Source: Candidatus Chromulinivoraceae bacterium | Lineage (GTDB): Bacteria > Patescibacteriota > Saccharimonadia > Saccharimonadales > Saccharimonadaceae | Assembly (NCBI GenBank): GCA_035478595.1 | Contig: DATIJL010000005.1 | Coordinates: forward strand, 1 to 52,184 | DNA length: 52,184 nucleotides | Direction: 5' to 3' | Part shown: one piece after another, positions 19,431-45,551 of the stretch | How the letters are laid out: the number at the start of each line of letters is the position of its first letter | How positions within the stretch are numbered: the stretch's first letter is position 1 | Translations under genes and position numbers: made by a program | The notes under the pieces: generated by a model | Told to the model about the DNA's origin: nothing | The model's database searches: none | The model's input: the letters and a program-made list of their open reading frames with translations, nothing else

Positions 19431-20648
19431 ATGCCTGAAGTAAAACCAAGCGAGATACAGACATTTGCCAGCATTAAAGTTGTTGGTGTTGGTGGTGCTG
19501 GCGGCTCTGCTGTAAACCGCATGAAGGATGCCGGCCTAACCGGTGTTCAATTTATTGCAATGAACACGGATGCGCAAGCACTACATAATTCTAAAGCAGA
19601 TACTAAAATTCATTTAGGTCACAATACTACAGGAGGCCTTGGTGCCGGAGCCGATCCTTCACAGGGACAGCGTGCCGCCGAGGAATCACGTGACGATATC
19701 CGTGATGCACTTGAAGGTGCTGACATGGTCTTTGTTACTATTGGTGCTGGTGGCGGTACTGGTAGCGGCGCAGGGCACGTAGTAGCTGAGATTGCTCGTG
19801 AGATGGGTATTCTAGTTGTCGGTGTTGCAACAAAGCCGTTCAGTTTTGAAGGTGAAAAGCGCCGTCAGAACGCAGAGTGGGCTATTGCACAGCTTGGTCG
19901 CCAAGTTGATACACTTATTACCATTCCGAACGACCGTCTTTTGCAGACGATTGATCGCCGCACGCCGCTTCTTGAGACATTTAAGATTGCTGACGATGTA
20001 CTTCGTCAGGGTGTGCAGGGTATTTCCGAGCTTATCACTGAACATGGTCTCATTAACCTCGACTTTGCCGATGTAAAGGCTATCATGAGCAACGCAGGGT
20101 CTGCACTTATGGGTATTGGTCGTGCGAGTGGAGACGATCGTGCCGCACAGGCTGCTCAGCAAGCTATCGAATCACCGCTAATCGAAGTATCAATTGATGG
20201 TGCTAAGGGCGTTCTCTTCAACGTTACTGGTGGCTACGATATGAGCATGAGCGAAATCCAAGAGGCTGCTGAAATTATTACCAGCGCCGTTTCGCCCGAT
20301 GCTAACATTATTTTTGGTGCAACACTCAAGCCGGAACTTGAAGACGAACTCATCATCACTGTTATCGCAACTGGTTTTGATAGTGCGTACTTCCACGAGC
20401 AGGCAGCTCAACTAGAGACGCCAACCGGTCTTGTTGCTGACACTAAGGCCGCTGCTAAGCCAATCTCTGAAGAAGTAGACGAAGCCGTACAAGATATTAG
20501 CATGGATCTTGATCAGTCTGATGCCGCTGCAGCATTTGCTGAAGAACCAACCCATGATATCTGGAGCACTCCACAAGACGATGACGAGTCGGATACGCCT
20601 GCGTTCCTTCGCCGCCGCAAGAAGAACAAGCATTCTGACGAATCCTAA
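19431..20648 (+). CDS. ftsZ: Cell division protein FtsZ
   Basis: Tubulin-like GTPase that forms the division ring. The 405-residue protein has [14 protein letters not shown] at the nucleotide site, the tubulin signature GGGTGSGAG, the T7-loop region [11 protein letters not shown] and a C-terminal linker rich in acidic residues. It ends with the conserved peptide [11 protein letters not shown], which binds FtsA. GGGGGAG at 19413-19419 lies about 11 nt upstream of the ATG. A weak promoter (-10 TATACT at 19389-19394) suggests extra transcription besides read-through from ftsA. nrdR follows after 13 nt. Confidence 0.96.
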
Positions 20649-20661
20649 GAAAGGAGCTAGT

Positions 20662-21111
20662 GTGAGCGCAAAATACAAGATTGGTGATAGTCGCGTGATC
20701 GAGTCGCGTGAGGCTGCCGATGGCATGACTATTCGCCGCCGCCGTGAGTCACTTGATGGCAAATATCGTTTTACGACGTATGAGCGAATTGAACGACCAA
20801 ACCTTGCGGTCATCAAAAAAGATAGCTCGCGTGAACTTTTTGATCGCGATAAACTAGCTACAGCTATTAAGCGTTCAGTAGGCAAGTTCTTCACATCTGA
20901 GTTGGAGATTGAAGAGATGATCAATAATGTTGAAGATCGGCTCTATAGTCTCAACGAAACAGAAGTAACATCGCGCCAGATCGGAGACTTGGTACTCGAC
21001 GAACTCGCCGGTCTTAATGAAGTCGCCTACGTCCGTTTTGCAAGCGTGTATCACGAGTTTAAAACACTCGACGAGTTTGAAGAAATTTTGAAACAACGCC
21101 GTAAGGTATAA
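20662..21111 (+). CDS. nrdR: NrdR-like ATP-cone regulator lacking the zinc ribbon cysteines
   Basis: NrdR represses ribonucleotide reductase genes by binding NrdR boxes through an N-terminal zinc ribbon, sensing dATP with an ATP-cone. This 149-residue protein has the DSR...IRRRRE...RFTTYE backbone and a full ATP-cone (RELFDRDKLATAIKRSVGK to VAYVRFASVYHEF). All four zinc cysteines are missing: the usual C3, C6, C31 and C34 positions hold Ala, Lys, Ser and Gly. The GTG start at 20662 has AAAGGAG 5 nt upstream, and there is no alternative upstream start with cysteines, since ftsZ ends there. It may bind DNA through a zinc-free ribbon or act without DNA binding. First of three genes reaching VKOR. 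Confidence 0.88.
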   Translation: MSAKYKIGDSRVIESREAADGMTIRRRRESLDGKYRFTTYERIERPNLAVIKKDSSRELFDRDKLATAIKRSVGKFFTSELEIEEMINNVEDRLYSLNETEVTSRQIGDLVLDELAGLNEVAYVRFASVYHEFKTLDEFEEILKQRRKV

Positions 21112-21116
21112 AGCAT

Positions 21117-21374
21117 ATGAAAACAATTGTTGTATATGAAGACGACACTGAATCTGCACGAGATGTAAATGAATACCTTCGTGACTTTTCAAGACAAACG
21201 GGCCACCAACTCGAAACGCTCGATCCTCGAACAAAAGAAGGCACAGATTTTTGTCGTGCCTATGACATTGTTGAATATCCAAGTCTCGTTGCCATAAGCG
21301 ACGATGGTGTGATGCAAAATCTATGGCGTGGTTTGCCGCTTCCTACTATTAGCGAAGTGAGTTACTATGTATAA
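21117..21374 (+). CDS. Small thioredoxin-fold-like protein without CxxC
   Basis: An 85-residue protein starting KTIVVYEDDTESARDVNEYLRDF and having EYPSLVAISDDGVMQNLWRG, which resembles the cis-proline strand of thioredoxins (YPSLV). It has only one cysteine (near residue 42) and no CxxC, so it cannot be a classical dithiol thioredoxin. It starts 5 nt after nrdR and overlaps the VKOR gene by 8 bp, so it is made with VKOR. It could be a partner or docking protein for disulfide transfer; this is inference from context. Confidence 0.55.
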   Translation: MKTIVVYEDDTESARDVNEYLRDFSRQTGHQLETLDPRTKEGTDFCRAYDIVEYPSLVAISDDGVMQNLWRGLPLPTISEVSYYV

Positions 21375-21984
21375 CAAATTGTTTCAACATGCCCGTGAGC
21401 GTTCGGATGTGTGGATTTTCTCTACAATGTTGGTAGGTGCGGCACTGAGCCTGCTTGCAGCTTTTGTACTTTCGGTTGATTCACTAGAGATTGCTAAAAA
21501 TCCGAACGCTGTGCTGAGCTGCAGCCTCAATGCGGTTATTAATTGCGCAAGTGTGATGAAGCATCCAAGTGCTGAAATGTTTGGTTTTCCAAACAGCTAT
21601 ATCGGTTTGATGGCTGAACCAGTGGTCATTACTATAGCCATTGCTGGACTTGCCGGTGTGCGGTTTCCGCGTGCATTTATGGCGGTAGCTCAGGCGTTTT
21701 ATGGACTCGGACTTATATTCGCGTTTTATCTCTTCTCGGTAAGTGCATTTCAAATTGGCGCACTGTGTCCGTGGTGTTTACTTGTCACACTCTCCACGAC
21801 GCTCGTATTCATGTCTATGCTTCATTACAATATACGTGAAGACAACTTGTATGTTTCCGAGAGACATAATGTATACCTGAAAAAATGGATCGCAAGCGGT
21901 TATGACCGTCTACTGACGGCAAGTATTATTGCTGTTTTGATCTTCATTATCTTATTCAAGTATCACGATGGCTTGTTCGGATAA
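21367..21984 (+). CDS. VKOR-family disulfide bond formation protein
   Basis: A quinone-linked membrane oxidase that regenerates disulfide donors. The 205-residue protein has four to five membrane helices, the active-site CPWC (134-137), the loop cysteine pair C52 and C60 (SCSLNAVINC), and the conserved PNSYIG serine stretch. This arrangement is characteristic of bacterial VKOR; no DsbA-like domain is fused. The window has several exported Cys-containing proteins that might be substrates (pilin, LCP, surface protein). Its TAA is followed by 24 more sense codons in the same frame before a second stop (see findings). Confidence 0.9.
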   Translation: MYNKLFQHARERSDVWIFSTMLVGAALSLLAAFVLSVDSLEIAKNPNAVLSCSLNAVINCASVMKHPSAEMFGFPNSYIGLMAEPVVITIAIAGLAGVRFPRAFMAVAQAFYGLGLIFAFYLFSVSAFQIGALCPWCLLVTLSTTLVFMSMLHYNIREDNLYVSERHNVYLKKWIASGYDRLLTASIIAVLIFIILFKYHDGLFG

Positions 21985-44958: not shown

Positions 44959-45551
44959 GTAAATGGGTAGATCCGCATATTTACGGGTCCAACTACATCG
45001 TAAAAGGGAATAAGTCCTAGACCGCTTCGTGAGTCGTATGAATAATCACCTTCGCGGTGGTCACCTGAAACGAATAGCGTACCGTCGGTTACGACCGTAT
45101 CAACATTGCCACTGGTTGGCGAACCGGGATGGCTCGTAGTGTCGTTTGCCTGAGCTTTATCTGGTTGAAAACCATTGGGGTTTTGCTGATTATAAACCGT
45201 TAGGACGCCGTCTTTTACGACGACTCGCTCACCCGGGAAGGCAATAACACGTTTTACAATAAATTCATCGCCAGTACCGGCATTGTATTGTGGGTTTTTA
45301 AATACGATAATTTGTCCGCGGTTTGGAATGTATGTTTTGTTTTGTAATTGTGCCCATGTAACAGGTAGGCGATTAACGATGAGGCGATCGCCAGTATATA
45401 GCGTAGTCTCCATACTGGGACCAAGTACATTAAAGCTACGAAAAACGTATGTATTAATAAGAAGTGTGCCAATTAGTACGCAGACGATAAAGATAAGGAT
45501 ATTGAGTGCATCCTTAAAAAGAGGGTGGCGCTGCATAAATGTGGCTTCCAT
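44940..45551 (-). CDS. lepB: Signal peptidase I
   Basis: Cleaves signal peptides of exported proteins. The 203-residue protein from ATG 45551 has one N-terminal membrane helix (about 13-34), the catalytic Ser46 in GPSMETT, Lys100 in VKRVIAFPGE and the box E stretch SGDHREGDYSYDSR. The start is set by the promoter: minus strand TTTACA (45587-45582), 17-nt spacer, TATAGT (45564-45559), ATG 7 nt later; the longer frame to 45626 is excluded. So the message is leaderless. Shares its terminator with parB. Confidence 0.93.
   Translation of the reverse strand: MEATFMQRHPLFKDALNILIFIVCVLIGTLLINTYVFRSFNVLGPSMETTLYTGDRLIVNRLPVTWAQLQNKTYIPNRGQIIVFKNPQYNAGTGDEFIVKRVIAFPGERVVVKDGVLTVYNQQNPNGFQPDKAQANDTTSHPGSPTSGNVDTVVTDGTLFVSGDHREGDYSYDSRSGLGLIPFYDVVGPVNMRIYPFTKVRFF

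Follow-up and report, generated by a model that had tools for sequence, protein, structure and literature searches.

A cysteine-less NrdR from one family of Saccharibacteria that probably represses ribonucleotide reductase genes without a zinc site

NrdR is a switch protein for the synthesis of DNA building blocks. It is usually presented as a zinc-ribbon protein and has been discussed as an antibacterial target. Saccharibacteria are tiny parasitic bacteria with reduced genomes. Zinc-free (C-minus) forms are known for the ribosomal proteins L36 and L33. Such forms have also been described for ribosomal protein S4 (PMC3087516), and the degenerate zinc ribbon of Haloferax TFE-alpha, which has lost most of its cysteines, is still functional (PMC5861453). 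In NrdR of Escherichia coli, the zinc ligands are Cys3, Cys6, Cys31 and Cys34, the ribbons pair through the dimer residues R27, R29 and E42, and V51, K53, E59, K65 and K76 serve the two nucleotide sites (PMC12176259). In the complex of Streptomyces coelicolor NrdR with DNA, the contacts are made by R12, D15, R17, R26-29 and R37, and the R17A substitution abolishes DNA binding (PMC9110341). Among papers available without subscription, our literature search returned no text linking NrdR to Saccharibacteria or Patescibacteria.

The gene presented in this work lies in the window, i.e. the whole stretch of DNA analyzed, 52,184 nucleotides from a Candidatus Chromulinivoraceae bacterium. Its open reading frame starts with a GTG codon at 20662, 13 bp past the ftsZ stop codon, and ends with the stop codon at 21109-21111. 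The features of the locus are as follows.

19431-20648, forward strand: ftsZ, directly upstream of nrdR
20650-20656, forward strand: Shine-Dalgarno-like AAAGGAG, 5 bp ahead of the GTG start
20662-21111, forward strand: nrdR, encoding a Cys-less NrdR of 149 aa (whole-protein NrdR profile TIGR00244, 142.3 bits against a curated cut-off of 124.65)
20662-20787, forward strand: ribbon domain without zinc ligands, residues 1-42, with predicted strands at 10-17, 23-30 and 36-42
20665-20688, forward strand: remodelled first knuckle SAKYKIGD, residues 2-9, with Cys3 replaced by Ser2 and Cys6 by Tyr5, then Ile7-Gly8 (per-position counts over 25 Cys-less proteins)
20734-20745, forward strand: invariant RRRR motif, residues 25-28, making DNA backbone contacts according to PMC9110341
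20749-20763, forward strand: remodelled second knuckle SLDGK, residues 30-34, with Cys31 replaced by Ser30, Cys34 by Gly33 and an invariant Asp-Gly turn
20806-21063, forward strand: ATP-cone (PF03477, 70.2 bits; about 69.3-70.2 bits over our searches, above the cut-off)
21117-21374, forward strand: 85-aa open reading frame without Pfam match, thioredoxin-like by eye, without CxxC
21367-21984, forward strand: VKOR-family membrane protein (PF07884, 111 bits)

When the protein is aligned with E. coli NrdR without gaps, the invariant ESR and RRRR motifs serving as anchors, the zinc ligands of the latter fall on Ser2, Tyr5, Ser30 and Gly33. The whole protein of the window contains no cysteine. The first-pass annotation of this DNA had rightly seen that all four zinc cysteines are replaced, but it gave the replacements as Ala, Lys, Ser and Gly, its assignment in the first knuckle being one residue off. 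The ribbon profile PF22811 (Zn_ribbon_NrdR) matches with 45.0 bits for a cut-off of 27.2 over profile positions 10-42 only, so that the first knuckle goes unrecognized. Among the defining features of NrdR that could be tested, the zinc site is the one that is missing, none of the 25 members of the clade described below having a ribbon cysteine where two CxxC motifs coordinate one zinc in NrdR; every other feature is present.

Compared with NrdR of E. coli and S. coelicolor (TIGR00244; structures 9fxk, 9fvr, 7p37 and 7p3f), the protein of the window has the same domain order, the same dimer residues, the same nucleotide residues in the cone and the same DNA-contact residues except Asp15, which is here Glu; its paired operators are likewise spaced by 14-17 bp. 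In contrast, it has no CxxC pairs, the knuckles being a hydrophobic segment and an Asp-Gly turn, and it is one residue shorter at the N-terminus. The NrdR of sister Saccharibacteria (e.g. loci L024, L032 and L043) is an orthologue with the same ftsZ-nrdR neighbourhood and the same NrdR-box motif, but it retains the four cysteines (Cys4), and in other families its own nrdJ-type gene follows nrdR. The C-minus forms of L36, L33 and S4 are comparable in that a structural zinc is gone while fold and role are kept, and L36 in nearly all of this order has S-P-D-D in place of CxxC, which resembles the S-P/L-D-G of Cys-less NrdR; they are, however, structural parts of the ribosome and not sequence-specific, nucleotide-gated DNA-binding regulators. 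TFE-alpha is likewise a transcription factor whose ribbon functions after losing most of its cysteines, but one cysteine and weak zinc binding are kept and it is not a sequence-specific repressor.

The Cys-less ribbon is real and clade-wide. A match to the protein was obtained in 57 of the 61 genomes around that of the window. The N-terminus of NrdR could be read in 35 genomes of the same family, of which 25 have a ribbon without any of the four cysteines and ten are Cys4. All but one of these 25 proteins are devoid of cysteine at any position, and in other families of the order the orthologues that were inspected are Cys4. A signature of the Cys-less first segment was found in 245 of the 295 species and 36 of the 61 genera of the family, which is a lower bound since it misses some Cys-less members (e.g. 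G010 and G019). The same signature matched in none of 188 genomes across 36 other families of the order, and the reversed signature, used as a control, gave no match in any genome. Among the 80 named loci listed (GTDB genomes), the Cys-less ones are seven from Saccharibacteria only, although independent losses may exist beyond the loci listed; the genome of the window would accordingly be that of a Saccharibacterium. Viral contigs gave two weak matches, with 3 and 5 ribbon cysteines, and no informative relative. In a tree built from ATP-cones alone, the ribbon columns being left out, a single branch has all Cys-less proteins on the same side (support 76/80, with 74% of bootstraps). A single loss of the zinc cysteines would be the simplest reading, with moderate support.

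The first-pass annotation had named a sequencing or start error hiding the cysteines, or relatives with intact CxxC pairs, as results that would speak against it. With 25 genomes read directly, 245 species reached by the signature and seven independent named Saccharibacteria records, an artefact of sequencing, assembly or start-site choice is practically inconceivable, and we reject sequencing error on the counts of 25/35 genomes and 245/295 species. A start-site error is rejected as well and would hide nothing, since an upstream in-frame start would fall within ftsZ and the nearby extra residues include no cysteine. Intact CxxC pairs do exist, but only in more distant relatives and sister genera; they thus date the change and are no sign of error.

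Counts over the 25 Cys-less proteins reveal a common pattern at the former zinc site. The Cys6 site is occupied by Tyr, Phe, Leu, Ile or Val in 24 proteins, and two residues later Ile or Leu is found in all 25, followed by Gly in 23. The Cys31 site is always Ser, Thr or Ala, and the Cys34 site is always Gly, preceded in every protein by Asp, whereas the same region of Cys4 relatives is without such residue preferences. These data indicate that the former cysteine sites follow a new consensus instead of drifting, and that the ribbon is remodelled rather than decayed. Moreover, the DNA-contact set (R/K12, E15, R17, RRRR and R37, in E. coli numbering) is present in 25/25 proteins. Glu at position 15 is also found in 27/27 Cys4 relatives, i.e. 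in all 52 NrdR compared in the order. The dimer residues R27, R29 and E42 are kept (E42 in 25/25), and in the cone K52, K64 and K75 are invariant and V50 and E58 nearly so, which corresponds to the nucleotide-site residues of E. coli. Pooled pN/pS was 0.126 in the ribbon as against 0.214 in the cone, values of which only the contrast is meaningful since synonymous sites are near saturation; this contrast points to purifying selection that is stronger on the ribbon than on the ATP-cone. The alignment with relatives proposed by the first-pass annotation therefore spoke for its first reading, a zinc-free ribbon, as contact and dimer residues are invariant and the zinc-site replacement is coordinated and conserved.

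The structure prediction that it had also suggested gave a three-stranded ribbon in spite of the missing cysteines. When Cys4 relatives were included in the alignment, AlphaFold predicted strands at 10-17, 23-30 and 36-42 with a mean pLDDT of 87.8 (ribbon about 85-88). With only eight Cys-less sequences, the same three strands were obtained with a mean pLDDT of 81.9 (ribbon 83-84). AlphaFold may force a family fold onto a sequence unable to adopt it. Within the modelled ribbon, confidence is lowest for the first ten residues (pLDDT 61-65). According to Foldseek and VIA-align 2, the best solved match of the model is E. coli NrdR (9fxk_A, Z 15.1 over residues 4-149, 146 aligned, rmsd 5.9), the large rmsd probably reflecting a mobile domain linker. 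The model thus suggests that the NrdR-like tertiary fold, including the three-stranded ribbon, is kept.

The search for NrdR boxes near reductase genes, the remaining check of the first-pass annotation, found them in all 23 reductase regions of Cys-less genomes. Paired boxes close to ACGCTATATATAGNGT are present in 20 of 22 nrdR upstream regions of Cys4 genomes (19 from other families and three from the same family). A PWM trained on 40 boxes, all from Cys4 genomes, was applied to 500-bp reductase upstream regions of Cys-less genomes, and all 23 of these scored higher than any of 143 control windows (median 23.5 bits vs -5.3 bits; Mann-Whitney P 8e-15), each with a shuffle P below 0.01. The spacers between tandem boxes are 14-17 bp in all 23 regions, and four NrdR proteins bind box pairs of such spacing in vitro (PMC12051234). 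Since one half-site is often degenerate, the published box expression, which is strict, recovers pairs in no more than 4 of these 23 regions, and it also misses those in 4 of 6 same-family Cys4 regions; it is too strict for these genomes and the trained PWM was therefore used. In the genome of the window itself (G000), two box pairs lie upstream of nrdA, including C1:45474-45489 with 45506-45521. A second reductase gene, of the B12 type, is preceded by one strong box and a weaker one paired with it.

In L121, L123, L125-L128, L130, L131 and L135, the proximal nrdA operator has conserved non-canonical outer half-sites (about ACYAYAYA) with two good inner half-sites, and in several genomes a separate distal pair is found alongside. 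In the genome of the window, near-perfect NrdR boxes outside reductase operons occur at C12:33941 (L161:1442), just upstream of a greA-like gene, and at C11:102823 (L162:1324), each pair having a weak second half. Two less complete genomes, G002 (76%) and G018 (85%), have reductase genes with good NrdR boxes and no NrdR match.

The genome of the window also encodes a second NrdR-like protein (C19:10679; L153:2680-3159), which keeps four cysteines and R17 and has WRRRxC and N-S-R motifs instead of IRRRRE and E-S-R. This paralog is found in about half of the Cys-less genomes and is widespread in the order. It might be the one that reads the boxes, the Cys-less protein having lost DNA binding and sensing nucleotides or forming mixed oligomers; we regard this as unlikely. 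Indeed, Cys4 genomes of other families have the paralog just as well, alongside a normal NrdR, its cone is weak (15.8 bits for a cut-off of 25.8), it fails TIGR00244 (48.8 vs 124.65), and such a division of roles would leave the invariant DNA-contact residues of the Cys-less protein unexplained. Moreover, PF22811 searches of draft genomes, some of them incomplete, detected no paralog in G001, G007, G009, G011, G015, G024 and G036 (97-100% complete) nor in the less complete G019, and 9/9 reductase regions of genomes without a detected paralog retain boxes. Since the boxes persist where no Cys4 paralog is detected, the Cys-less NrdR is most likely their reader. The other reading of the first-pass annotation, that DNA binding was lost and the cone reused, is left without support, boxes being retained where the Cys-less protein is the only NrdR-type protein found.

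It is very unlikely that the ribbon has become a pure oligomerization module, with the dimer interface kept, DNA binding lost and an unrelated regulator reading the boxes. The tetramer does need ribbon pairs (PMC9110341), which could explain why R27, R29 and E42 are kept, but invariance extends to R17 and R37, which lie on the DNA face, and box sequence and spacing fit NrdR geometry and the motif of Cys4 relatives. Zinc or another metal might still be held by ligands other than cysteine, such as Asp9, Asp32 or a His. Asp32 is invariant, Asp, Asn or Glu is found at position 9, and haloarchaeal TFE-alpha keeps weak zinc binding with one cysteine (PMC5861453); this is nevertheless most improbable, as the Cys-less proteins have no conserved set of four ligands (the cysteine sites being Ser or other, aromatic or aliphatic, Ser/Thr/Ala, and Gly) and 16 of 25 ribbons contain no His.

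Taken with the invariant contacts, the purifying selection, the coordinated replacement of the zinc site and the boxes in 23/23 regions, the reading that the first-pass annotation had put first is favoured: very probably, the ribbon of this NrdR is free of metal and the protein continues to repress reductase genes through NrdR boxes of the usual kind. It also seems likely that a metal-dependent DNA-binding fold was made metal-free once in one bacterial family, both zinc knuckles being exchanged for an Asp-Gly turn and a hydrophobic plug, with operator code and allosteric control unchanged over hundreds of species. Both CxxC knuckles would have been replaced in the common ancestor of a large subgroup of the family, the first by a hydrophobic-x-Ile-Gly-Asp segment and the second by a Ser/Thr-Leu/Pro-Asp-Gly turn. 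The ends of the three-stranded sheet may then be held together not by a metal but by a tight turn and a small hydrophobic contact, and the DNA-gripping surface (R/K12, E15, R17, R26-R29 and R37) and the dimer residues came through unchanged. When ATP and dATP are both in the cone, a tetramer would bind a pair of NrdR boxes separated by about three turns of the helix; sitting on the boxes upstream of the reductase genes, it would switch them off when dATP is plentiful. If the Cys-less protein is confirmed to fold without metal, to bind DNA, to act as a repressor and to sense dATP, zinc would be dispensable for NrdR, as judged from a clade of several hundred species that keeps operators and DNA-gripping surface, and the clade would offer a recipe for a metal-free ribbon.

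The locus had been described as lying between ftsZ and a VKOR gene, which is right for ftsZ, but the 85-aa open reading frame intervenes on the VKOR side. Relocation of nrdR to ftsZ as a trigger of the loss of the zinc site is rejected, the ftsZ-nrdR order being ancestral in the order. In Cys4 genomes of other families, a reductase gene (nrdJ-type) directly follows nrdR; within the family, nrdJ-type genes at this place were superseded by class I or class III genes located elsewhere, and a small open reading frame, often with VKOR, took their place, in some Cys4 members too. The 85-aa frame follows nrdR in most of the family, i.e. in nearly all Cys-less and several Cys4 same-family genomes. The VKOR neighbour is rejected as a cause, as several Cys-less genomes lack it next to nrdR and two Cys4 loci, L030 and L032, have it there. 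In L030 (G033:C15), an in-frame TAA interrupts the Cys4 nrdR, which is either a broken gene or an assembly error.

A lineage-wide sparing of zinc is rejected as a simple cause. L36 is Cys-less (CxxC replaced by S-P-D-D) in nearly the whole order, Cys4-NrdR genomes included, so that its loss does not track the NrdR change, and the genome of the window retains the Cys4 NrdR-like paralog and a CxxC-type segment in IleRS. In this genome, both L36 (C16:112025; L246) and L33 (C16:99475; L245) are Cys-less. Since L36 is Cys-less order-wide and L33 is so in the genome of the window, a trend away from structural zinc may have set in before NrdR changed. The loss of zinc from NrdR would then fit a wider pattern in these reduced genomes, in which the L36 zinc site was lost earlier. 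Finally, a small protein at C11:2311 (L004:1333-1767) of the genome of the window carries a stand-alone ATP-cone without ribbon or reductase, and similar short open reading frames are found in many relatives.
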